A DNA stretch of 38,094 bases, taken from Chloroflexota bacterium. GTDB taxonomy: Bacteria > Chloroflexota > Limnocylindria > Limnocylindrales > CSP1-4. Below are positions 5,610 through 38,094 of the stretch, piece after piece. The notes under the pieces were generated by a model. It ran no database searches. It had not been told where the DNA came from and was given only the letters and a program-made list of their open reading frames with translations. The position numbers and the translations under genes were made by a program. Location: the NCBI GenBank assembly GCA_003158675.1, contig PMKN01000026.1, positions 245 to 38,338 on the forward strand. The letters are read 5' to 3'. Numbering within the stretch: the first letter of the stretch is position 1; every line of letters starts with the position of its first letter.

Positions 5610-7375
5610 CCGCGTCCGGTCGGCAGCGCCGGCTTGCCCACATCGACTACAAATGGATCGCGCTCTCGAACACGACGCTCGGCATCCTGATGGCCGGGCT
5701 GAACGGCAGCGTTCTTCTCATCTCGCTACCGGCGATCTTCCGCGGCATCGGCATAGACCCGCTGGCGCCCGGCGAGTCCGACTACATGCTCTGGATGCTC
5801 GTCGGCTACACGCTCGTAACCGCGACGTTGCTCGTGACGGCGGGTCGTGTCTCAGACATGTACGGCCGTGTGCGGCTGTACAACGCCGGGTTCGCGATCT
5901 TCACCCTGGGCTCCATCATGTGCTTCTTCGTGCAAGGGCAGGGTAATGGGGCGGCGCTGCAGCTCATCCTGTTCCGCGTCATCCAGGCCGTGGGTGGGGC
6001 GTTCCTGATGGCGAACTCGGCGGCGATCCTCACCGATGCCTTTCCAGCCGAACAACGTGGCTTCGCCATGGGCGTGAACCAGATCGGCGTTCTGGCGGGC
6101 ATGTTCGCGGGGCTGCTCGTCGGCGGCGTGCTTGCCGCGATCGACTGGCGTGCTGTCTTCCTCGTGAGCGTGCCGTTCGGGATCTTCGGGACCGTGTGGG
6201 CATACCTGATGCTCCATGAGACGGCCACCATCCGCAAGCACCAGCGCCTCGACATCCCGGGGAACGTCCTCTTTGCCGCGGGGCTCGTTCTGGTGCTGGT
6301 CGGCTTCACATATGCGATCCAGCCCTATGGCTCGTCGACCATGGGATGGGGGAATCCGTCGGTGATCGGGGAGCTCGGCGGCGGTGCCCTCTTGCTCGCC
6401 CTGTTCGTCGTCGTGGAAGGCCACGTCCCAGACCCGATGTTCAGGCTGGAACTGTTCCGGATCCGGATGTTCACGGCGGGCAACATCGCCGGGTTTCTGT
6501 CGTCTCTGGCGCGGGGCGGACTCCAGTTCATTCTCATCGTCTGGCTGCAGGGCATCTGGCTTCCGCTTCACGGAGTGGCGTTCCAGGACGCGCCTTTGTG
6601 GGCGGCCATTTGCATGCTGCCCATGACGGTCGGGTTCTTGATCGCCGGACCGCTGTGTGGCCGGCTTTCCGATCGGTTCGGGGCGCGCTACTTCTCGACC
6701 GGCGGCATGCTCCTGTCTGCCGCGGCATTCACCGTCTTCCTGCTGATGCCGGCCGACTTCGACTATGTTCCGTTCGGGCTGCTACTGCTGGCGCTCGGCC
6801 TCGGCCAGGGAAGCTTTGCGGCGCCTAACACGGCGTCGATCATGAACGCGGTCCCGCCCGAGCATCGGGGCGCGTCGTCGGGCATGCGGGCCACCTTCCA
6901 GAACGTCGCCCAGAGCCTGAGCATGACGCTCATCTTCAGCCTGGTGATCGCGGGCCTCTCGGCGCGCCTGCCCGGTGCGATGTTCAGCAACCTGACTACC
7001 GCGGGAGTGCCTGACAAGATGGCCTCGAGCCTCGCCGGATTGCCGCCTACTGGTGCGCTATTCGCGGCCTTCCTGGGCTACAACCCCATGGCGACACTCA
7101 TCCCGCCCCAGGCACTCGCCGGTCTGTCGAGCTCGACACAAGCGACGATCCTGAGCAACTCGTTCTTCCCGCAGCTGCTGGCGGGGCCATTCATGGACGG
7201 GCTGCGGGTAGCCTTTGCCGCCTGCGTCGCGCTGTCGATGGCCGCCGCCGCGGCCTCCTGGATGCGTGGTCGCCGCTATATCCACGACCTCGAGGTGGTG
7301 TCGGTGTCAGTGGGGTCCAGTGGCGATCGGGCCGCTGCCTTCGAAAGCCCAGCGAAGGCGCCTGCGGGGAAGTAG
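5606..7375 (+). CDS. MFS drug efflux transporter, DHA2 (14-helix) type
   Basis: The 589-residue length fits the 14-helix DHA2 family of proton-drug antiporters (EmrB/QacA-like). The first helix carries a [20 protein letters not shown] segment matching the family motif around helix 1. Motif A appears as [16 protein letters not shown] between helices 2 and 3, and a motif C-like [15 protein letters not shown] segment follows in helix 5. A second motif A-like [16 protein letters not shown] marks the second half. The long loop near residues 440-510 before the last helix is typical of the family. It acts in the cytoplasmic membrane. It overlaps the MarR gene by 4 nt, and the substrate is unknown. 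Confidence 0.92.
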
Positions 7376-7391
7376 GAACCGCTTGCGCCGG

Positions 7392-7499
7392 CACGATAAC
7401 CGGACTCGAGATGCTCGGGACTCCACGAGGGGTGCCACTACGCCAACCCGGCTACCTTCCAAGCTGAAACTCGCGGGTTCGAGACCGTCTCCCGCTCCG
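7392..7499 (+). repeat. tRNA-Gly(TCC)-like relic, copy 2
   Basis: This aligns over its full length with 4723-4833, starting at CACGATA and ending in CTCCCGCTCCG. It retains CTTCCAA, the anticodon loop of tRNA-Gly(TCC), followed by GCTGAA and a T arm that has lost one C. The encoded CCA is now CCG. There is no 5' acceptor strand. Like copy 1 it sits immediately downstream of a + strand gene, here in the convergent gap before the Kelch gene. Confidence 0.55.
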
Positions 7500-7561
7500 A
7501 TCCCTTTCGTGCTGACGGAGACCAGCCTCTCGCCGGACCTGATCGTCGACCTCAGCCTCGC

Positions 7562-8971
7562 CTAAAGCTCGTACAACTCCGCCGAAGGCGGCCCGGAGGC
7601 CCAGGTGTCGCTGCCGAGCAGCAAGACTCGGCCGTCTGCCAGCAGGGTGGCGGACACGGCGCCGGCATTCTTCAGAAGCAGCCCGATCTGGCTGAAGGTG
7701 CCAGTCGCCGGGTCGTACACCTCCACCGAGCTGATCGACTGCGAGCTGTCCGAGGTGAGTCCGCCGGCGATGAGCACGCGGCCGTTCTTCAGCAACGTGG
7801 CGGTGTGGTTCTGGCGGCCGCTGATCATCGATCCGGTCGCGCTGAACTTCCCGGTCGCTGGGTCGTACAGCTCCGCCGAGCTCGGCATGCTTGCGCTCGC
7901 GCCGGTCATGCTGGATCCGCCGGCGACGAGCACGCGGCCGTCGGGGAGGAGCGTGGCAGTGTCGCCCTCCCGCGGCGTCGACATCGACCCGGTCGAGCTG
8001 AACTTCCCGGTCGTCGGGTCGTAGACCTCGGCCGATGCTACGTCGTCCTCGGGGGCGCCATCGGAACTCGTCCCGCGCGTCCGTCCGCCGACGACGAGAA
8101 CGCGGCCGTCTGCGAGCAATGTCGCGGTGTGGAAGTAGCGAATACCTGCCATCGAGCCTGTCCGGCTGAACTTCCCCGTCGCCGGGTCGTACAGCTCCGC
8201 CGTGTTGGTCTCGCCCCCGCCGACGATGAGCACGCGGCCATCCTTCAACAAAGTGGCCGTGTGGAATCGACGCCCCACGATCGGCGAGCCTGTCCGGCTG
8301 AACTTCCCGGTTGCCGGGTCGTACAGCTCCGCCGTGTCGATGGGAGCGCCGTCGCCGCCGACGATGAGCACGCGACCATCCTTCAACAGGGTGGCCGTGG
8401 GGTACTCACGACCCAGTGTCATCGAGCCGGTTGGGCTGAAGGTTCCGGTCGCGGGATCGTATGTCTCGGCGGCAGCCAGATCCGGTCCGTCGGCGAAGCC
8501 GCCGGCGACCAGAACGCGGCCATCGAGGAGCAGCGTGGCCGTGTAGCCAAGCCGGTATTCGGGCATCGCTCCCGTCGGTGTGAAGTGGCCTCCGGGCGTG
8601 GCCGACGCGGTTGCCGCAGGCGTGCTCGACGGCTCGGCCGAGGCCGAGGGCGCAGCAGTGTTCGAAGCGGAAGCCGAAGGGGAGGCCGACCCAGGCGCCG
8701 CCGGCGGGAAAGAGGGGCCAGCCGACCGGAGCGTCAAGCTCAGGACGATGATCGCGGCCAAGGCCAGCGACGCACAGGCAGCTGCGACCGTCGCTGGCCG
8801 CCCAAGAGCCGGCCGCATCGGGTTAGCCCATCGGCGGCCGCGAATTGGATGCTCGTCCGGCAGTTCGCGTATGTAGGAGTAGATGTCGGGCGGCGCAATC
8901 GGATCCAGGTTGGCGCTCAGCGAACGAAGGCGCCGCTCGATCTCGTCCTCGCCGAGTTGCTGCGTGCTCAT
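7562..8971 (-). CDS. Membrane-anchored Kelch-type beta-propeller, candidate ECF partner
   Basis: The protein has 469 residues from ATG 8971, whose start overlaps the sigma factor stop (ATGA). Residues 1-58 are a charged cytoplasmic segment and about 60-82 one membrane helix. Residues 83-127 are a Ser/Ala/Pro linker. From about residue 130 there are seven Kelch-like repeats with the pattern TATLLxDGRVLVxGG and [17 protein letters not shown], enough for a seven-bladed propeller outside the membrane. The last repeat is slightly degenerate. Coupling to the ECF sigma gene and the short N-terminal cytoplasmic part suggest an anti-sigma or sensor role. No zinc-binding anti-sigma HxxxCxxC motif is visible, so this is inference. 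It could instead be a surface protein merely controlled by the sigma factor. Confidence 0.85.
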
Positions 8972-10802: not shown

Positions 10803-11351
10803 TCAGCTCTTGCGGAGAGCGACTCTGAGGGTGGCCCTTGCCCGCGACAGCCTGCTCGAAACCGTGCCCGGTGGTTCGCGGAGGATGGCGGCGATTTCCT
10901 TGACGGAGTAGCCATCCAGGCAGTTGAGCAGGAGGCACGCGCGAGTGCGGGGTTCTAACGAGTTCAGGGCGGAGAGGAGGTCCGGGTCGATGTCGTCCGT
11001 CCATTCGACGGCCGCGGAACGGGCGATGATCCTGCCCAGCACGCGGCGACGTTCGAGTTGGTTGAACGCAAGGCGCAGGGCAATCGTATGGAGCCAAGCC
11101 CGAGGGTCGCGGCCGTCGAACTTCGACCACGCTCGGTAGGCGCGCTCGTAGGCATCCTGCGCCACGTCCTCGGCATCCTCGCGATTTCCCAGAACCAGCA
11201 CGAGGCGGCGCACGAGCCCCGGGTACAGCGGCGCCATTACGACCTCGAACGGCTGTGCCGATTCTCTGGCGACGCGGGACAATTCGATCCTGGAACCGCT
11301 CGGCATTGGACGAGCAGCCGCGGAGGAGAGGCTCTCAGGTCTTGGCGTCAC
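10803..11351 (-). CDS. ECF-type RNA polymerase sigma factor (second locus)
   Basis: The protein has 182 residues from GTG 11351, which overlaps the TGA of the preceding membrane protein gene (GTGA). The frame is open to 11573, but that part runs over the upstream gene. Region 2 is visible as VLGNREDAEDVAQDAYERAY and the following AWLHTIALRLAFNQLERRR. Region 4 is CLDGYSVKEIAAILREPPGT and the next VSSRLSRARATLRVAL. An N-terminal tail of about 40 residues precedes region 2. The order, membrane protein first and sigma second, is the reverse of the locus at 7562-9522 and of most ECF/anti-sigma operons. Confidence 0.88.
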   Translation of the reverse strand: MTPRPESLSSAAARPMPSGSRIELSRVARESAQPFEVVMAPLYPGLVRRLVLVLGNREDAEDVAQDAYERAYRAWSKFDGRDPRAWLHTIALRLAFNQLERRRVLGRIIARSAAVEWTDDIDPDLLSALNSLEPRTRACLLLNCLDGYSVKEIAAILREPPGTVSSRLSRARATLRVALRKS

Positions 11352-20608: not shown

Positions 20609-22105
20609 TCAGGGTTTAGCGCCGTAGGTGGTCAGGCAGACTCCGGTCGCGCAGCGGCGGCCGAGTTGGCGATACCCCGGCGGCAGTGGTGGGGGAGTGG
20701 CGCCCGGGGCGCCGACGAAGAAGACCACGCCACCGCTCACGGCGATCTCCGGAGGGACGGAGTGCCAGACCGCATCGGGCGGATACGCAGCCGTGCCGAA
20801 GTACCATGGCGGGTCCGACTGGGCCAGAACGTGCAGGCGGGCGCGCAGCTCCGGGCTGCCATCCACAAGCAGTAGCAGATAGCGGTCCGGGTCGGCGGCA
20901 ACGAGATCCTGAGGGCGCACCCGCGACTCGATCTCGGGCAGGAGCGAAGCGGTCTCGGGATGCGTAATCGCGGTGCCGAGGGCGAGTGAACCGATCGCGG
21001 CGGCCGCAACGAGGGCGACCGCGAGGCGGCGCGGCATGGCAGCCAGGCCGACGCCGCACAGGGCGAAGAGCGGCAGCCACATGACGTCGGCGTAGCGGGC
21101 CTCGAGGATCGGGCGCCACAGGCTGACGCCCGCCAGGACGGCCACGCCACCGGCTGCTGCGAGGCAAAAAGCGGCGGCACGCCGACCCTCGCGGGGCAGG
21201 CGTCGCCAGGTGACCGCTGCGCTGGCGAGGGCCACGCAACCGGCGACCACTTCGATGATCTGGAGGGCGACCAGGAGCTCTCGGTACGGCACGCCCGAAT
21301 CGATAGGCGGGCCGGCGAAGAGCTGGCCGAACGTGCCGGCAATCGAGCTGGGACTCAGCGGTGGAATCCAGAAACCCTGGCCGGCATGCTCGAGCTGGGA
21401 GCGGGCGAAGAGCAGCCAGGGGCCAACACTGGCGGCCGTTCCGGCGCTGATCAGGCCGGCCAGGACGAGGTTTCGACGGCCGGGTCGGAGCCAGGCCACC
21501 GCTCCCAGCACCCCTACGATCGCGATCGCGGCGAAGTAGTCGGTCCAGACGGCGGCAGCGGCGACCGCGCCGTACGCGATCCATCGCACAGCCTTCGGCC
21601 GCTCCTCTGGGGAACGTGTCGCATCGGACGGCGGCCGCTTTGGGGACTCGACCGCTCGCCACAGGAGCAGCATCGCGGCCACGACCAGCGCACCGGCCAG
21701 CGAGTACATGCGGGCGTTCTCAGAACTGAGCAGAGTCGTCGGCAGGACCGCCGCGAAGACGGCGGCCGAGAGCCCGGCCGCATCGCCGGAGACACGACGA
21801 GCCAGCGCCGCGAGTAACGGGATCAGGGCGATTCCCGCCAGGGCGGGCACTATTCGCATGGCAGCCGGGCCGTGGGCCACCTGCGCGACGAGCCACTCCA
21901 GAACGTAGAAGAGCGGCGGCGCGCTGTCGCGGCTCACAACTCCGAGCATGTCGCCCAGTTGCCGAGCCACGACAGCTGCGGTGAAGTCCTCGTCTGTGCC
22001 GAGGGGTTGCCGGGCCAGCAGCGCCAGCCGGAACACCGCCCCGCCCGCCGTGATCAGCGCCAGCTTTCGGCCGTAGCCGGGTCGCAAGTCTCGGGTCACG
22101 GTCAT
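20609..22105 (-). CDS. GT39-like (GT-C fold) membrane glycosyltransferase
   Basis: This 498-residue multi-span membrane protein has about ten helices and a soluble C-terminal domain. After helix 1 the first outer loop carries an acidic pair, QPLGTDEDFTAAVVARQLGD, as in GT-C enzymes that use lipid-linked sugars (GT39/GT83, DUF2723-like). The loop then reads RDSAPPLFYVLEWLVAQ, a typical PPL/Y segment. Another conserved-type stretch is SSENARMYSLAGALVVAAML. The C-terminal part (about 390-498) is extracytoplasmic. It transfers a sugar from a polyprenyl carrier to a protein or glycan outside the cell (family knowledge); donor and acceptor are unknown. Its ATG overlaps the stop of the next GT39 gene (ATGA), so they are translated together. 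Confidence 0.85.
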   Translation of the reverse strand: MTVTRDLRPGYGRKLALITAGGAVFRLALLARQPLGTDEDFTAAVVARQLGDMLGVVSRDSAPPLFYVLEWLVAQVAHGPAAMRIVPALAGIALIPLLAALARRVSGDAAGLSAAVFAAVLPTTLLSSENARMYSLAGALVVAAMLLLWRAVESPKRPPSDATRSPEERPKAVRWIAYGAVAAAAVWTDYFAAIAIVGVLGAVAWLRPGRRNLVLAGLISAGTAASVGPWLLFARSQLEHAGQGFWIPPLSPSSIAGTFGQLFAGPPIDSGVPYRELLVALQIIEVVAGCVALASAAVTWRRLPREGRRAAAFCLAAAGGVAVLAGVSLWRPILEARYADVMWLPLFALCGVGLAAMPRRLAVALVAAAAIGSLALGTAITHPETASLLPEIESRVRPQDLVAADPDRYLLLLVDGSPELRARLHVLAQSDPPWYFGTAAYPPDAVWHSVPPEIAVSGGVVFFVGAPGATPPPLPPGYRQLGRRCATGVCLTTYGAKP

Positions 22106-31045: not shown

Positions 31046-31273
31046 CCGCCAATTCTAGTCAGGCGGCGCCGCCGTCCAGCATTCGGGCCACGCCGCCGGG
31101 CCCGTGAGGCCGACTGTTCGGCGGCCTCTCCGTTCCCCACACTGGCTCAGTCCGATCCGAGACGGGTGGCATTGCGGCGATCGAGCGATAGTGGGAGACC
31201 GAAACGGCCGCCCCAAGCAGATGGGCGGCCATGTCCCGAACGCCCGACAAGGGCGGCGGAAGGACGGTGCTCC

Positions 31274-33412
31274 GTGGATGGATCGACGCGATCGAGCGGT
31301 CGAGTCGGATACTGGCTGCTGACAGCCGTGGTCGCAGCCGCGGCGTCGCTGGGCTTGCCGAATCCGGCCGCGGCCGGGGCGCCCTCGGCCCTGCCCGCTG
31401 CGCCCGCGACCGCTGCGCCCGCGACCGCTGCGCCCGCGACCGCTGCGCCCGCGACCCTCGCCGCACCGCAGGTTGCCTCGTCGGACTGGCCGGTGTATCA
31501 CCTCGACTCGGGTCGAACCGGCAACGACGCCACCTTCCCTGCGTTCGGCGGTTCCCTGTCCCCGGACTGGTCGACGGCCCTTGACGGGGCCGTCTACGCG
31601 GAGCCGCTGGTCGTGTCTGGGAACGTGATCGCCGCAACCGAGGGCGATAGCGTCTACGCGCTCGATCCGGCGAACGGCTCGGTGCGCTGGCACACCAACC
31701 TGGGCAGCCCGGTGCCTCTTTCGTCGCTGCCGTGCGGAGACATCGATCCGCTGGGGATCACGGGCACGCCCGCGTACGACCCGGCGACGGGCTCGCTGTT
31801 TGCCGTCGCGGAAGTGACCGGCTTCCAGCACGTCCTGTTCGCCCTGAATCCCGCCACGGGCGCCGTGCTGTGGTCGCGTACTCTGGACCTGGCTGGCGAC
31901 GATCCGCGGACCCACCAGCAGCGTCCGGCGCTCGCCGTCGCCAACGGTTACGTCTACGTCGGCTTCGGCGGACTCGCTGGCGACTGCGGCCAGTATGTGG
32001 GCGAGGTCGTCGGCGTTCCTGCGAGCGGCAGTGGTGCCACGATCTCCTACCGCGTCCCGGTCTCTCGCGAAGGCGCCGTCTGGGCCACCGGTGGCCCGGT
32101 CATCGACGCCGCGGGCCACGTCTATGTCTCCGTGGGAAACGGTGCCTCGACCACCACCTATGACGGCAGCGACTCAGTGCTCGAACTGTCGCCAACTCTC
32201 CAGCTGCTGAGCTTCTTCGCTCCGTCGAGCTGGGCCGCGGACAACGCCAACGACGCGGACCTTGGTTCTCTCAGCCCGGTGCTGGTTCCCGGAGGCCTGG
32301 TCTTCATCGCCGGCAAGAGCGGCACGGGCTACGTGCTCCATCAGGGATCGCTGGGGGGTATCGGCGGGCAGGTGTCGTCGACCGCGGTATGCGCCGGATT
32401 TGGAGGGGCGGCTCTGAGCGGCAGCACGGTCTACGTCCCGTGCGTCTCTTCCATCCGCGAAGTGAAGGTCGGCTCTGATGGCTCGCAAACGGTGGGCTGG
32501 ACGAGCACCGCCGCGGGCGGGCCCCCGGTCGTGGGCGGAGGAGCAGTGTGGTCCGTCGACACCGGGGCGGGCAAGCTCGTCGCCCTCGACGCCGCGACCG
32601 GTACCGCGCTCGGTTCGATCGCGGTCGGGGCAGTGCCTCATTTCGTGTCGCCGACCCTGTGGGCCAATCAAGTTCTGGTCGGCACCGACGCGGGCGTGAC
32701 GTCCGTATCCGCAAGCGTAGCGGCCGCCTTCGACGTTTCGGGTCTCGCCTCGCCCCGAACTGGCGGAGTGGCGGGTTCGATCACGGTCACCGCGCTCGAT
32801 TCCGGCGATCACGTGGCAACGAGCTACCGGGGCACGGTCCACTTCACGAGCGATGACTCGGCAGCCACACTGCCAGCCGACTACGCTTTCACCGCCGCCG
32901 ACAATGGCCGGCACACGTTCAGCGTGACCCTGGCCACGACTGGCACGAGTTCCATCACCGCCACCGACACGGCCAATGCGAGCCTCACCGGCACCCAGAG
33001 CGGCATCCTGGTCGATCCGTCGGGCGCCACGTACTTCCCGGTGGCTCCAGTCCGGGTGCTCGACTCGCGACCCGGCACACGGCACGTCGGCGCGGCGCTG
33101 TTCCACTCCCGCGTCAAGCAGACCTTCATCGTCGGCTCGGCCGCCTTTGGAGTCCCGTCCAACGCGGTCGCAGTCACCGGCAATCTCACCGTCGTGGCTC
33201 AGACCCGCGCCGGTTACGTGACTCTCGCACCGGCCCTCGCATCGGGCGTCGCGCCGCCGACCTCTACGCTCAACTTCCCGCTCTCCGACACAAGGGCCAA
33301 CGGCGTGACGGTGCCACTCGGAGCAGGCGGCACGCTCGACGCCATGTACTGGAGTGCGAGCACTGCCGACACGGTCAATCTCCTCTTCGACGTGACCGGC
33401 TACTTCCACTGA
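31274..33412 (+). CDS. Secreted PQQ-like propeller protein with Ig-like and C-terminal domains
   Basis: The protein has 712 residues from GTG 31274, which follows GGAAGGA. The signal peptide (about 1-34) is followed by an Ala-Pro-Thr linker (35-65). A WD40-like PQQ propeller (about 70-478) shows repeats such as GDSVYALDPANGSVRWHTNL, HVLFALNPATGAVLWSRTLD and GKLVALDAATGTALGSIAVG. An Ig-like domain covers about 482-578. The C-terminal domain (583-712) begins YFPVAPVRVLDSRPGT and ends LLFDVTGYFH. That domain type occurs at the end of many large secreted proteins in high-GC bacteria and I take it as a surface-binding module. No PQQ enzyme residues are evident, so a binding role is more likely. 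The two-component operon starts 24 bp downstream. Confidence 0.87.
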   Translation: MDGSTRSSGRVGYWLLTAVVAAAASLGLPNPAAAGAPSALPAAPATAAPATAAPATAAPATLAAPQVASSDWPVYHLDSGRTGNDATFPAFGGSLSPDWSTALDGAVYAEPLVVSGNVIAATEGDSVYALDPANGSVRWHTNLGSPVPLSSLPCGDIDPLGITGTPAYDPATGSLFAVAEVTGFQHVLFALNPATGAVLWSRTLDLAGDDPRTHQQRPALAVANGYVYVGFGGLAGDCGQYVGEVVGVPASGSGATISYRVPVSREGAVWATGGPVIDAAGHVYVSVGNGASTTTYDGSDSVLELSPTLQLLSFFAPSSWAADNANDADLGSLSPVLVPGGLVFIAGKSGTGYVLHQGSLGGIGGQVSSTAVCAGFGGAALSGSTVYVPCVSSIREVKVGSDGSQTVGWTSTAAGGPPVVGGGAVWSVDTGAGKLVALDAATGTALGSIAVGAVPHFVSPTLWANQVLVGTDAGVTSVSASVAAAFDVSGLASPRTGGVAGSITVTALDSGDHVATSYRGTVHFTSDDSAATLPADYAFTAADNGRHTFSVTLATTGTSSITATDTANASLTGTQSGILVDPSGATYFPVAPVRVLDSRPGTRHVGAALFHSRVKQTFIVGSAAFGVPSNAVAVTGNLTVVAQTRAGYVTLAPALASGVAPPTSTLNFPLSDTRANGVTVPLGAGGTLDAMYWSASTADTVNLLFDVTGYFH
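31400..31457 (+). repeat. Coding tandem repeat, 15-nt units
   Basis: Four units of GCGCCCGCGACCGCT (the last one diverges at its end) encode APATA repeats in the linker after the signal peptide of the PQQ-like protein. Confidence 0.85.
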
Positions 33413-33436
33413 AGCTGGGCGGCCTAACATGAGCGC

Positions 33437-35116
33437 GTGCTGAGTCGATCGCGCCTTTCGATCGAGCGACCGCGGCGCCCATCGATGGTGGGGCTGGCGG
33501 CGGCCGGCGTCGGCGTGGCCCTGACGACGGCGCTCGCGTTCTTGCTCGTTCGCGTCCTGAACGTGCCCGATGCCGCGATCGTCTATCTGCTGCCGGTCGT
33601 CGCCGTGGGCATGGCTTACGGTAGCTGGTTGGCGGTCGGCACCTCCGTGGCCTCGTTCCTCATCTACGACTTCTTCTTCGTTAAGCCTCTCTACACATTT
33701 TCGATCGCTTCCGCTGAGGAGTGGCTCGATCTGCTGCTCTTCCTCGTCGTCGCCATCGCCATCGGCCGTTTGAGCGCGGTCCAGCTGCAGCGCCGCCGCG
33801 AGGCAGAACTCCGCTCCTCGGAAGCCCGGGCGATGTTCGCGATGAGCCGAGACACGGCGAACGCGGCGTCGGCGCTCGAGGCGGCCCCGCGGCTGGCTGT
33901 CCGGCTGGCCCGCGAGGCGGAGATGGATCGAATCTGGGTGGGCCTGGGCGCGTCGCCGGCGGAGGAGCGAGTCGTGGCCGACAGTCGGCCCGAAGGTGCT
34001 CGCCCTGGGCTCGCCTCGCGTTGGGTGCTCCACGCAACCTCGGCGGAAGCGCAGCCGAGCTGGTCTCGAGTCCGTGATACGTCGGGCGGTCGACGTCACG
34101 AACACGACCGCGAACCGACTCGCGAGTCCGAGGAGCCCGTGACGGTCTTTAGAGCCCCGATTCAAGCTGGCGGCGAGATCATTGGTTCGGTGTGGGCGAC
34201 CCGAGTCCGCAACGACCCGTTCCCGGGCCGCTCGCACACGCGGCTGCTCGCCGCCGCTGCCGACCAGCTGGGCCAGTCGGTGGTGCGCGACCGCCTCGCC
34301 GCCGATGCCACCGCCGCCGAGGTTGCCCGCCAGGGAGACGCACTCAAGTCCGCCCTGCTCGATTCGGTATCGCACGACCTGCGCACGCCGCTGGCCGCGA
34401 TCCGCGCCGCCGCCGGGAATCTCATGGATCCGGACGTGAACTGGAGCCGAGAGGAGGAGCGGGCCGCGGCCCGCTCGATCGACGCGGAGGCGCAGCGCCT
34501 GAGCCGTCTCGTGCGCAACATGCTGGACCTGAGCCGGATCGAGGGAGGCGCACTGCGGCCGTCGCTCGAGCCGTACGACCTGGCCGACCTCGTCGATCCG
34601 GTGGTCGAACGACTGGCACCGGTGCTGGTTCCAGCCAGTGCCGAAGTGGCGATTCCGGAGGACCTGCCGCCCGTTCGGGTCGACGCCATATTGCTCGACC
34701 AGATCCTTACCAACCTGCTCGAGAACGCCTCCCGCTATGCCGCCGGCAAGCGGATCCGAGTGACCGCCTCGTGTCCCTCGGACGGAATGGTCGAGCTGGT
34801 GGTCGAGGACGCCGGTCCGGGCGTTCCGGACTCGGCGCTGCCCCGCCTATTCGAGCGGTTCTATCGAGGGCCGCGTCGCGTGGGATCGCGCAGCGAGGGC
34901 GGGTCAGGGATCGGGCTGACGGTGGTTCGAGGCCTGGCCGAAGCAATGGGCGGTTCGGTCGAGGCCCGGACGAGCGAACTTGGCGGACTGGCCGTGGCGG
35001 TCAAGCTGCCCGTCGAGTCGGAGGCCGAGCCACCCGAGTCGACGGGTCCGGTCGCGCCGGCGGAACGGATCAAACGGCCCAGCAGGGCGGCCCGCATCCT
35101 GACCGGCCCCGAATGA
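33437..35116 (+). CDS. Sensor histidine kinase, C-terminal half of split KdpD
   Basis: The 559-residue protein has four clustered membrane helices (DUF4118, about 18-112) with the family phrase YDFFFVKPLYTFSIASAEEW. A GAF-like region follows (about 130-290). The H box is SVSHDLRTPLAAI with His313. The ATPase domain has an N box DQILTNLLENASRY (421-434), a G1 box VEDAGPGVP (456-464) and a G2 box GGSGIGLTVV (488-497). This equals the C-terminal 60 percent of E. coli-type KdpD, but the KdpD-N and Usp domains are missing; they are encoded at 36129-37295 on the other strand. A 40-residue basic/Pro-rich tail ends it. GTG 33437 starts 24 bp after the PQQ-like gene. The stop overlaps kdpE (ATGA). Confidence 0.9.
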   Translation: MLSRSRLSIERPRRPSMVGLAAAGVGVALTTALAFLLVRVLNVPDAAIVYLLPVVAVGMAYGSWLAVGTSVASFLIYDFFFVKPLYTFSIASAEEWLDLLLFLVVAIAIGRLSAVQLQRRREAELRSSEARAMFAMSRDTANAASALEAAPRLAVRLAREAEMDRIWVGLGASPAEERVVADSRPEGARPGLASRWVLHATSAEAQPSWSRVRDTSGGRRHEHDREPTRESEEPVTVFRAPIQAGGEIIGSVWATRVRNDPFPGRSHTRLLAAAADQLGQSVVRDRLAADATAAEVARQGDALKSALLDSVSHDLRTPLAAIRAAAGNLMDPDVNWSREEERAAARSIDAEAQRLSRLVRNMLDLSRIEGGALRPSLEPYDLADLVDPVVERLAPVLVPASAEVAIPEDLPPVRVDAILLDQILTNLLENASRYAAGKRIRVTASCPSDGMVELVVEDAGPGVPDSALPRLFERFYRGPRRVGSRSEGGSGIGLTVVRGLAEAMGGSVEARTSELGGLAVAVKLPVESEAEPPESTGPVAPAERIKRPSRAARILTGPE

Positions 35117-35817
35117 GCGCCGCCGGAGCGGTCATCCTGATCGTCGAGGACGATGAGGCGGCGCGAGTTGCGATTGCGAGCAACCTGCGCGCCCGAGGTC
35201 ATGAGGTCGACGAAGCGGGCGACGTGCGCGAGGCGTTGCACGCTTGGGACAGCCGCCGTCCGGATCTCATCCTGCTCGATCTGGGACTGCCCGATCTGGA
35301 CGGCCAGTCGGTCATCCTGCGCGTCCGCCGGGAATCCACGACCCCGATCATCGTGGTCTCGGCACGCGGACGCGAGGAGGATCGGGTTTCGGCCCTGGAC
35401 GCGGGCGCCGACGACTACCTGACCAAACCCTTCGGCTTGTCGGAGCTGCACGCCCGAATGCGGGCCGTTCTCCGGCGGGCAGCCGGGCCGCAGGCGGACA
35501 CGGAGGGGCGTCTGCGTCTCGGCCCGGTCGTGATGGACGTGCCGCGCCATGAGGTCACGGTCGGAGAGACGCCCGTGGAGCTGACGCCGCGCGAGTTCGA
35601 GCTGCTCAAGGTGCTGCTCTCACAGTCCGGACGGGTCGTGACGGCGGGCCGGCTGCTGCGTGCCGTCTGGGGCACGGCCTACTCCGACGAGGGCCATTAC
35701 CTCCACGTCTACGTCTCTCGGCTTCGCCGCAAGCTGGTGGCGGCCGACCCTTCGGGCGCGGCGGCCAGGCTCATCGTGGCGGAGCCCGGCGTGGGATACC
35801 GAATCGTGGCCGAGTAG
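35113..35817 (+). CDS. kdpE: Response regulator KdpE, OmpR family
   Basis: The protein has 234 residues. The receiver domain holds the acidic pair EDD (12-14), the phosphoacceptor Asp56 in LILLDLGLPDLDG and Lys105 in YLTKPFG. The winged-helix DNA-binding domain (about 130-234) has VELTPREFELLKVLLSQSGR, HYLHVYVSRLRRKL and the end VAEPGVGYRI, as in OmpR/PhoB proteins. The linker and LRRAAG region fit KdpE. ATG 35113 overlaps the kinase stop. It likely activates the kdp operon that ends the window on the opposite strand. The reading frame is open further upstream, but that part is a shadow of the kinase gene. Confidence 0.9.
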   Translation: MSAAGAVILIVEDDEAARVAIASNLRARGHEVDEAGDVREALHAWDSRRPDLILLDLGLPDLDGQSVILRVRRESTTPIIVVSARGREEDRVSALDAGADDYLTKPFGLSELHARMRAVLRRAAGPQADTEGRLRLGPVVMDVPRHEVTVGETPVELTPREFELLKVLLSQSGRVVTAGRLLRAVWGTAYSDEGHYLHVYVSRLRRKLVAADPSGAAARLIVAEPGVGYRIVAE

Positions 35818-35884
35818 GGGAAGGCGTCCGAGGTCTGACGGGCGTGGCCGTCCGCAGGCGCACTGGTCGCGGTCGCTGCCGCCG

Positions 35885-36106
35885 CTACGGCGTAGCTCGC
35901 CGCACCTGCCAGCGTCGCAGCGCGATCACGGACCAGACCAGTTCCACGACGCCGAACGGCCACGCGCCCTGCAGAAAGCCATACGTCGAGGATGCCAGGC
36001 ACGCGCCGGCGAACGCCACGACGAACCAGGCAGAACGCGCCTCCAGGGCGTAGAAGACCAGCATCGCCGTGACGGCGAGAGCGCCGAAGATGGTCAGTGG
36101 ATCCAA
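35885..36106 (-). CDS. Small membrane protein in the kdp operon
   Basis: A 73-residue protein has three hydrophobic helices (GALAVTAMLVFYALEA, WFVVAFAGACLASSTYGFLQ, WPFGVVELVWSVIAL) and a basic tail RRWQVRRATP. TTG 36106 (LDPLTIFGALAV) is chosen because the upstream extension to 36166 is charged and overlaps the KdpD-N gene; GAGG lies about 9 nt ahead. It is 22 bp downstream of the KdpD-N stop, so it is the last gene of the kdp operon. The helices fit a SemiSWEET-like or CBU_0592-like small membrane protein, judged by feel only. Function is unknown; it is convergent with kdpE. Confidence 0.65.
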   Translation of the reverse strand: MDPLTIFGALAVTAMLVFYALEARSAWFVVAFAGACLASSTYGFLQGAWPFGVVELVWSVIALRRWQVRRATP

Positions 36107-36128
36107 GCCCCGCCGCCTCGCTCGACCG

Positions 36129-37295
36129 TCACCGCTGGCGCGCCTGGGGTGCCGGTGGCTCGCCAATCAGGTGTACCTCCAGGCCCGGAGCCGCCTCCAG
36201 CAACCGATCGGCCAGCGACGCGCGGCCAAGTCCGATGCCGCGATGCGGTTCGTGGACGAGGACCACGTGGCTGACGCGGTGCTCGGCAATCACTTCCGCC
36301 AAACCGCGCGCCAGGTCAGATGCCTGGCCTCGGACCACCTCGGCGCCAAGGTCCACGGCGTAGTCCACGTTGGCCTGCATGTTCTGGCGCCGGTCGCGCG
36401 ACTGCTGGACCGCGGGGGTTTCCACCGCGACGGCCATCCATGTCGCGTGGAGCGTGCTCGCCAAAGACGAGGCCCGCCGCAGCGCCCGCCGGCACCCGGT
36501 CGACTCGTCGACGATGGCCATGACCCGTTCCGTTACCGGTGGGAGCGCGATGCCCTGGCTGGCGACGGCCCCTTCCAGTTCCTGGTCCACTCGCCCCGCC
36601 ACGAACCTCAGGGCCAGATCGCGCAGCGCCATCAGGTTGGAGTCGGTGAAGAAGCGCTCCAGGGCGATGGCGGCCCGTTCCGGCGGGTAGACGTTGCCGT
36701 GGCGCATGCGCTGGCGGAGGGCATGCGGACTCATATCGACGAGTTCGATCTCATCTGCGGACCGCACCACCTCGTCCGGGATGCGCTCGTGAACCGGCAC
36801 TCCAAGAATCGTTTCTACGGCGTCCGCCACCGACGCCACGTGCTGGACGTTGCACGTGCTCACGACCTCGATGCCGGCGTCGCGGATCGCCTCCACGTCC
36901 TGCCAGCGCTTCTCGCGCACGGAGCCCGGGACGTTGGTATGGGCAAGTTCGTCGACCAGGGCCACGGCCGGGTGGCGGGCGATGATCGCGTCGGCGTCCA
37001 TCTCCTCGACCGCCACTCCCCGGTATTCCACTCGGTGGCGCGGGACGGCCTCCAGACCATCCAGCAGCGCCGCGGTGTGGCGCCGGCCGTACGTCTCGAC
37101 GAAGCCCACCACCACGTCGGTGCCGCGATCGTGGCGGCGATGCGCTTCCTCGAGCATCTTGTACGTCTTGCCGACCCCGGGTGCCATGCCCATGTATATG
37201 CGCATCCGGGCGCGATCCGGTTTCCGATCGGCAGCCAGCCGGGCCAGCATCTGATCGCCGGTCGGTCGTCCCTGCTCGATCGGTTCGGCTGTCAT
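36129..37295 (-). CDS. kdpD: KdpD N-terminal sensor protein with Usp domain (split KdpD)
   Basis: The protein has 388 residues. The KdpD-N domain (about 20-235) has the Walker A-like loop GMAPGVGKT (36-44), KMLEEAHRR, VVVGFVETYGR and the Walker B region VALVDELAHTNVPGS, followed by REKRWQDVEAI and VVSTCNVQHVAS. A universal-stress-protein-like domain follows (about 255-380), with HVVLVHEPHRGIGLGRASLA near its end. The protein stops where the membrane helices of full KdpD would begin; it has no DUF4118 or kinase domain. It starts 1 bp after the kdpC stop. ATP and cyclic di-AMP bind these domains in known KdpD proteins (family knowledge). It probably works with the kinase at 33437. Confidence 0.9.
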   Translation of the reverse strand: MTAEPIEQGRPTGDQMLARLAADRKPDRARMRIYMGMAPGVGKTYKMLEEAHRRHDRGTDVVVGFVETYGRRHTAALLDGLEAVPRHRVEYRGVAVEEMDADAIIARHPAVALVDELAHTNVPGSVREKRWQDVEAIRDAGIEVVSTCNVQHVASVADAVETILGVPVHERIPDEVVRSADEIELVDMSPHALRQRMRHGNVYPPERAAIALERFFTDSNLMALRDLALRFVAGRVDQELEGAVASQGIALPPVTERVMAIVDESTGCRRALRRASSLASTLHATWMAVAVETPAVQQSRDRRQNMQANVDYAVDLGAEVVRGQASDLARGLAEVIAEHRVSHVVLVHEPHRGIGLGRASLADRLLEAAPGLEVHLIGEPPAPQARQR

Positions 37296-37296
37296 T

Positions 37297-37884
37297 TCAG
37301 TCTACCCTCAGTAATCCGTCGAGATCCAGGTTCAACTCCAGAACGTGCACGGACGCCGCGCCGATGAAGCCGAGGAACGGCTGCGAGGTGTGGCGCGCCA
37401 CGACCGCACGGACCGCATCCTGGGTCATTCCGCGGGCGCTGGCAACCCGTGCCACCTGGTACTCGGCCGCTGCCGGGCTGATGTCCGGGTCCAGGCCGGA
37501 GGCGGAGGCCGTGACGAGTTCGATCGGGACCGGAGCGTTGCCGTTGGCCTTGCGCTCGGCGTCTACGCGTTGGGTGATCGCGTCGATGAGTGCCTTCGAG
37601 GATGACGACAGGTTCGATCCGCCGGACGCGGTCGGGTCGTAGCCATTCGCCCCGGCGGCGGACGGCCGGCCCGAGAAGTACTTCGGGTCGTCGAACGCCT
37701 GGCCGATCAGACTCGAGCCCACGGTGCTGCCGTCGACGATGATCATCGAGCCGTTGGCCTGGCCCGGGAAGGCGATCTGGGCGACAGCCGTCACAGCGGC
37801 GGGGTAGATGAAGCCGGTGATTACCGTGATTGCCAGCAGTACCGCCACCGCCGGCCAGAGCTGCGTTCGGATGAAGCTTCGCAT
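37297..37884 (-). CDS. kdpC: Potassium-transporting ATPase subunit C
   Basis: The protein has 195 residues with one N-terminal membrane helix (about 8-32, LWPAVAVLLAITVITGFIYP) and an outer domain. Family marks are GSSLIGQAFDDPKYFSGRPS and AANGYDPTASGGSNL-type glycine-rich segments, then ELVTASASGLDPDISPAAAE and QVARVASARG, which fit KdpC. KdpC stabilises the KdpFABC complex and raises its potassium affinity. ATG 37884 has AGGAG 6 nt upstream, in the 9-bp gap after kdpB. Confidence 0.95.
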   Translation of the reverse strand: MRSFIRTQLWPAVAVLLAITVITGFIYPAAVTAVAQIAFPGQANGSMIIVDGSTVGSSLIGQAFDDPKYFSGRPSAAGANGYDPTASGGSNLSSSSKALIDAITQRVDAERKANGNAPVPIELVTASASGLDPDISPAAAEYQVARVASARGMTQDAVRAVVARHTSQPFLGFIGAASVHVLELNLDLDGLLRVD

Positions 37885-37893
37885 GGTGGACTC

Positions 37894-38094
37894 CTAGGCC
37901 AGGTGAACGGCGGTGATGAGGAGGTCGATAGCCTTGATCCCCAGGAACGGGGCGAAGATGCCGCCGACCCCGTAGATCAGCAGGTTCCGCCGCAACAGCT
38001 CGGCGGCCGGGGCCGCCCGGTAGGCGACGCCGCGGAGCGAGAGCGGCACGAGGGCGACGATGATCAGGGCATTGAAGATGACGGCCGACAGGAT
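37894..38094 (-). CDS. kdpB: Potassium-transporting ATPase subunit B, C-terminal end
   Basis: The last 66 codons of kdpB enter from the right edge. The product begins [20 protein letters not shown], continues [26 protein letters not shown] and ends [14 protein letters not shown], the two last membrane helices of the P-type ATPase subunit. The catalytic domains lie outside the window. It is 9 bp upstream of kdpC in the same operon. Confidence 0.93.

Follow-up and report, generated by a model that had tools for sequence, protein, structure and literature searches.

Division of KdpD between two proteins at a Chloroflexota potassium uptake locus with two histidine kinase-response regulator pairs

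How might the Kdp potassium pump be controlled when its sensor, KdpD, is encoded as two proteins on opposite strands? This question is raised by a 38,094-nucleotide stretch of DNA (the window) from a Chloroflexota bacterium, covering positions 245 to 38338 of contig PMKN01000026.1 (C84) of assembly GCA_003158675.1, a draft genome of 2.78 Mb in 102 contigs that is 82% complete. Near the end of the window, which is also the end of the contig, a plus-strand kinase and regulator block (33437-35817) faces a minus-strand gene, kdpD-N (36129-37295), for a 388-amino-acid (aa) protein with a stand-alone KdpD domain and a Usp domain. The block consists of HK2 (33437-35116, plus strand), a 559-aa histidine kinase (HK) that lacks the KdpD-N domain, and RR2 (35113-35817, plus strand), a response regulator (RR) of the OmpR/PhoB type with Pfam receiver and Trans_reg_C domains; the two genes overlap by 4 bases. 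On the minus strand, a single base separates kdpD-N from kdpC (37297-37884; PF02669, 238 bits, and above the NCBIfam KdpC cut-off), which is preceded by the last 201 bases of kdpB (37894-38094), where the contig stops. A preliminary description of the window, which gave the coordinates of both halves correctly, had placed the KdpD-N half in a kdpB-kdpC operon; this is right but visible only in part, the front of a kdpB being at the end of another contig, C57. It had also described the opposite half as DUF4118/GAF/kinase. DUF4118, the transmembrane (TM) part, scored 78 bits, HisKA 60, and HATPase_c 89, but the GAF match, at 20.9 bits, fell under its cut-off of 22.4. The best NCBIfam match of RR2 was KdpE PRK10529, with 203 bits compared to a cut-off of 325, and RR2 is called KdpE-like only.

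Analysis of related loci showed that the split is an inherited, conserved arrangement, because in 28 of 29 Chloroflexota loci the frame of KdpD-N contains no kinase match and the HK halves of this family (n = 23) form one clade (support 100/98) apart from the full-length KdpDs. The in-frame test was done by coordinates, and each KdpD-N frame of the 28 tabulated loci reaches a stop inside its contig. The table leaves aside L029 (truncated at one end, with an Acidobacteria title and no kinase in frame), L094 (a duplicate of L035), loci of other phyla, and L040, which was added as the 29th; plasmid-borne relatives, 60 being listed of 436 records, were used solely for choosing comparators. The genome itself has one PF02702 (KdpD) match, and a profile search of it found no full-length kdpD, although at its present completeness a copy might have been missed. 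The halves, being on opposite strands, cannot be joined in one frame, and with the NCBIfam model of full-length KdpD (PRK10490, cut-off 1123) they scored only 317 and 183 bits. Among the same-genus genomes (n = 21, this one included), PF02702 was above the cut-off in 18, of which three (G004, G006, and G020) carry it in two pieces; G009 and G013 gave no match, and G018 gave one of just 36 residues that stayed under the cut-off.

What the operon half does is suggested by its sequence. Its open frame of 390 aa holds no kinase match; PF02702 covers residues 28-236 with 299 bits, and this front part matched the N-terminal region of KdpD (2r8r) in Foldseek with a TMt of 0.94. Pfam named no Usp domain in KdpD-N. 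That part of the earlier designation is borne out by a predicted model of the portion beyond the KdpD domain (mean predicted local distance difference test score 82, predicted template modeling score 0.60), which matched 7ji4, a Usp domain of KdpD, with a TMt of 0.85 and 18% identity. Walker A is GMAPGVGKT (residues 36-44), and Walker B is Asp115-Glu116. The Walker A pattern G-X5-GKT, the Walker B DE, and the equivalent of R190 are identical in 12 of 12 aligned proteins, and G42, K43, T44, D115, and E116 are invariant across the 19 rows of the alignment. The position of W39 is Tyr in KdpD-N and in the 10 other non-E. coli proteins of the 12, which include two Deinococcus proteins and the KdpD of L. 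plantarum. The N-terminal domain of Escherichia coli KdpD is an atypical serine kinase: at high K+ it phosphorylates Ser162 of KdpB and halts the pump, and in isolation it still acts on KdpB without the remaining chain (PMC11018627). The kdpB of this genome, on C57, retains the corresponding TGES motif (ITGESAAVLKEPG). With the Walker motifs, the R190 equivalent, and TGES kept, KdpD-N is most likely the brake of the pump, an atypical serine kinase like its E. coli counterpart. A direct action of the soluble half on the transporter, one of two routes envisaged at the outset, fits this biochemistry, with all catalytic residues kept except for the Trp-to-Tyr change.

Which kinase controls transcription is less simple, since the identification of the "other half" with the kinase of the window overlooked a second, paralogous pair; two HK-RR pairs flank the operon. 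HK2-RR2 is downstream and convergent, whereas HK1 (7325-8938, plus strand, in locus L089 on C57) and RR1 (L089 8935-9684, plus strand) are upstream and codirectional with kdp. Beside HK1 lies a gene for a KimA-type importer (L089 4771-6795, minus strand; phmmer E of 2.1e-135 against the solved KimA, PDB 6s3k, over residues 62-671), and the kdp operon itself includes a stand-alone receiver gene (L089 11490-11906, plus strand), possibly a phosphate sink or a link between the two pairs. Model positions 615-675 of kdpB are at the end of C84, and C57 ends with kdpA and positions 7-536, the latter split between two frames on either side of undetermined bases. The order receiver-kdpA-kdpB-kdpC-kdpD-N in contiguous relatives leads us to infer a junction of C57 and C84 within kdpB. 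Where the sequence reaches 8 kb or more upstream of KdpD-N (14 loci), a codirectional HK is present in 11 loci and the stand-alone receiver in all 14; both pairs are visible in three loci (L024, L026, and L035). Same-genus rows of HK2 (n = 7) and of RR2 (n = 8) each form a clade (100/99 and 100/98, respectively), and HK2-RR2 is an old paralogue. Nine Streptomyces loci, one Saccharibacillus locus, and L035 (the same locus as L094) were omitted from the trees, in which distant rows are on long branches, so that only in-family clades were used. Exactly two DUF4118 matches were found in 16 of the 21 same-genus genomes, three in one, one in three, and none in one; one match each in G018 and G007 was weak.

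Further analysis of the upstream regions revealed a putative regulatory box. A tandem repeat, GTTTAG-ATCGC-GTTTAG, lies 56 bp before the first gene of the kdp operon (L089), and GTTTAG-N5-GTTTAG is conserved upstream of the operon in relatives. The predicted box is of the KdpE type, two 6-bp direct repeats with a 5-bp spacer before kdp; the E. coli KdpE site, TTTATA-N5-TTTACA (PMC3264566), has the same spacing and an AT-rich spacer, whereas the spacer here is not AT-rich. Genome-wide, GTTKAG-N5-GTTKAG occurred at exactly two sites, both at the K+ locus, compared to none in a reversed control and to about 0.3 expected from base composition (0.04 for the GTTTAG form). The GTTGAG site (L089 7256-7272) lies between HK1 and kimA, is oriented towards kimA, and differs from the kdp box by one base per half-site. 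Across the 21 same-genus genomes, 42 sites were found, compared to 8 in the reversed control. The GTTTAG form accounted for 14 of the 42, one per genome in 14 genomes, all in front of the kdp operon's first genes (in L112 the contig stops after the receiver); L017 and L023 have only TTTAG-N6-TTTAG in its place. Another 15, in 15 of the 21 genomes, lie 106-127 bases ahead of a DUF4118 domain, which is HK1 where the locus was placed (those of G006, G013, G017, and G019 were not placed as to HK1). Of eight further sites, seven precede kimA (L101-L103 and L105-L108), and that of L104 meets a contig end.

GTTGAG boxes away from HK1 were at first seen as unspecific repeats because there was no clear gene within 400 bases; this view was given up, since in L101-L103 and L105-L108 a match to kimA lies 443-506 bases farther along. 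In G001, G008, G010, and G020, HK1 and kimA are on separate contigs, and each has a box of its own. GTTGAG-N5-GTTGAG heads the kimA-type gene in L089, L024, L094, L101-L103, L105-L108, and L113. In the five leaders tested, an open reading frame (ORF) of 134-148 aa starts 56-57 bases 3′ of the kimA box, and the kimA and kdp operons follow the same plan: box, 56-57 bases, small gene, importer. As to the feedback that the preliminary description thought possible, the box before HK1 suggests autoregulation of the HK1-RR1 pair. For HK2-RR2 nothing comparable was found, either in seven aligned upstream regions or near HK2 in this genome. Because the box precedes kdp, HK1, and kimA but is absent beside HK2-RR2, HK1-RR1 appears to be the likelier regulator of kdp and of K+ import.

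The explanation that we consider probable is therefore a two-chain KdpD in which the operon chain is a serine kinase acting on KdpB and transcription is handled by separate HK-RR pairs, more likely by HK1-RR1. KdpD-N with its Usp domain, last in the pump operon, would be made together with the pump; when potassium is plentiful, it would phosphorylate KdpB at the TGES serine (Ser162 in E. coli), and uptake would stop. The membrane histidine kinases and their KdpE-like regulators would set transcription, with HK1-RR1 acting through the tandem repeat before kdp, HK1, and kimA on K+ import. On the best reading no signal need pass between KdpD-N and the kinase half, because the soluble half would be a serine kinase that works on its own and blocks the pump through KdpB; the preliminary description had given such a transfer as one of two alternatives, but the kinase half keeps a TM input of its own.

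Several observations weigh against this explanation. First, L040 (Anaerolineae) has a full-length KdpD, and the split is thus not general in the phylum; likewise, of the 17 loci that extend 6 kb or more downstream, only 9 have a convergent HK or RR, so that the facing layout did not hold up as a universal feature when related genomes were surveyed. In L037 (G020), L038 (G006), and L093 (G004), KdpD-N is in two frames or has a missing stretch; assembly error seems likelier than decay here because kdpC is also broken in L037. Second, TGES is common to P-type ATPases, which makes its retention a weak test of the target serine, and KdpD-N scored 312 bits with the NCBIfam short-KdpD model NF038185, below the cut-off of 550. 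Third, the convergent kinase of L031-L034 clusters with the HK1 side (99/98) and not with HK2, and that of L094 falls outside both groups. Fourth, in 14 genomes from another family of the order, 8 box sites were found compared to 7 in the control, and the box signal is therefore confined to near relatives; among those, the survey of neighboring genes covered 37 of the 42 sites. Finally, in L101 and L102 a boxed kimA follows HK2-RR2 on the same strand, immediately so in L101. This connects HK2, too, with K+ import, to which HK2-RR2 may also belong, and it moved some weight, slightly, from the explanation above to the alternative that follows.

In that alternative, HK2-RR2 rather than HK1-RR1 is the KdpDE system controlling kdp, and perhaps kimA, while the target of HK1-RR1 is a different or an overlapping one. 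Besides the arrangement of L101 and L102, it draws on the convergent HK or RR that adjoins kdp in 13 of 28 loci and on the closeness of the kdp and kimA boxes. It has to contend with the box ahead of the DUF4118 kinase in most of the genus, with the HK1-type pairs upstream of kdp where there was enough sequence, with the lack of a box at HK2, and with the convergent kinase of L031-L034, which is outside the HK2 clade. We regard it as possible but unlikely.

A second alternative accepts the brake and concerns its trigger. The short KdpD of Deinococcus geothermalis likewise phosphorylates KdpB and stops the pump, under cyclic di-AMP (c-di-AMP) (PMC11018627), and the serine kinase here might be switched on in the same way at its Usp domain. 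The KdpD of Synechococcus elongatus has been cited as a c-di-AMP binder (PMC8214093), this genome has one diadenylate cyclase domain, and the structure matched by the Usp model, 7ji4, is a c-di-AMP complex. However, of the binding motif (A/G/C)XSXSX2N(Y/F) (PMC8214093), only Ser246 is kept, positions 242/244/246/249/271 reading I/D/S/C/A here. At the Ser244 position, this family (n = 15 rows) has Asp in 14 rows and Gly in one, compared to Ser in three rows from other phyla and Asn in one other Chloroflexota row. Since the S244D change abolished c-di-AMP binding in the KdpD of Staphylococcus aureus (PMC8214093), c-di-AMP input to this KdpD-N is doubtful. The mapping itself is not decisive, as it was made through L. 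plantarum KdpD with the S. aureus and D. geothermalis sequences outside the alignment, and neither is the loss of the motif, which both aligned Deinococcus proteins also lack. No c-di-AMP riboswitch matched Rfam at gathering scores in the window, L089, or L090, and a relaxed Rfam search of L089 6700-7400 gave just two weak, unrelated matches with E up to 5; between HK1 and kimA, the GTTGAG tandem repeat at the head of kimA stands instead. Altogether, activation by c-di-AMP seems rather unlikely.

A third alternative is that KdpD is rebuilt in trans, KdpD-N binding HK2 (or HK1) and tuning its balance of kinase and phosphatase activities. The N-terminal region of E. coli KdpD is reported to matter for signaling by the same chain (PMC2714519), and the adjacency of a convergent HK or RR to kdp, already mentioned, would suit such a sensor. 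Yet the kinase halves retain their own TM input, 8 of the 17 loci with sufficient downstream sequence lack a convergent pair, and the E. coli N-domain was active on KdpB by itself; a sensor of this kind is improbable. Last, the split might reflect an error of sequencing or assembly, or a full-length kdpD in decay. The fragmented draft and the contig break inside kdpB might point this way, but such an origin is very hard to reconcile with the same split in the loci of 28 relatives and with HK2, RR2, and KdpD-N each intact in frame on opposite strands.

The favored reading, a serine kinase in the operon and separate HK-RR pairs, agrees in its core with published systems. A split KdpD has already been described for Chloroflexota and Acidobacteriota (Silberberg et al. 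2024, PMC11018627), likewise with a KdpD/Usp serine kinase chain in the pump operon and a separate TM/GAF/DHpCA histidine kinase chain. In contrast to that description, the c-di-AMP motif is degenerate here, and the two HK-RR pairs, the operon receiver gene, and the box shared with kimA are not described in the available parts of that paper. Deinococcus radiodurans has kdpBAC-kdpD-N with a separate sensor kinase (SK)-RR operon on the opposite strand (described in 2017, PMC5716572); it shares with the present case a truncated KdpD-N after kdpC and an SK and RR encoded on the opposite strand, a layout visible in its locus as well, but its SK-RR operon is upstream and diverging, whereas HK2-RR2 is downstream and converging and the second pair here is upstream and codirectional. 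The locus has in total the same kinds of domains as E. coli KdpD and KdpE, where kdpD is one chain and kdpE stands at the end of the kdp operon. No literature was found on Limnocylindria with kdp, and no title listed in a search for kdp loci with two kinases pointed clearly to the present layout. Within the literature searched, four features are new: the flanking of kdp by two HK-RR pairs, the presence of a receiver gene in the operon, a box common to kdp and kimA, and Asp in the pocket of the Usp domain.

Some neighboring features complete the picture. A small membrane-type ORF 3′ of kdpD-N (35885-36166, minus strand) has a counterpart in 11 relatives' loci and no match in a Pfam search; a TTG near 36103, noted by eye, is the likelier start, giving about 72 aa. 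A gene for a 748-aa beta-propeller (PQQ-like) protein (31166-33412, plus strand) stops 24 bases ahead of HK2; a search of relatives' loci gave nothing above 80 bits for it, so HK2 may be expressed by read-through from it in this strain. At 33410-33440, before HK2, relatives have GGCCTAMCATGNGCGNGTG in common, with a -10-like hexamer, TAMCAT, a few bases ahead of the GTG start, perhaps a leaderless promoter. Farther upstream is a tRNA-His gene (21609-21695, minus strand). On C57, RR1 is followed by a minus-strand gene; on that strand, upstream of the kdp operon, lies a probable GntR-type regulator (by eye; L089 10650-11070) with a palindrome around 11043-11062. Then come, all on the plus strand, a gene for a 97-aa protein, the receiver, two ORFs recognized by eye (one for a membrane peptide of roughly 30 codons, the other kdpF-like), kdpA, and kdpB. 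A second KimA homologue, 48% identical, is encoded on C89. G021 has a second KdpD-N (L094 14516-15799, plus strand) that is 49% identical and lies 3′ of a kimA gene and a receiver; its Walker A lysine is replaced (GKT to GTT), and it is probably not an active kinase.

These features invite a wider but tentative reading, in which one KdpE-like circuit governs both Kdp and KimA through the GTTKAG box, KdpD-N is a brake whose Usp ligand is other than c-di-AMP, and the receiver links the paralogous HK-RR pairs by competing for phosphate. Equally tentatively, the lysine-less KdpD-N after kimA in L094 hints that KdpD-N proteins might also serve KimA. For the family, the split confirms the published pattern that transcriptional and post-translational control of Kdp can be on separate chains. 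It also offers a natural case in which the serine kinase active site is kept and the known c-di-AMP pocket is not, which makes the trigger of short KdpD proteins directly testable. The predicted promoter box, in turn, would tie kdp, kimA, and one of the two HK-RR pairs into one circuit.

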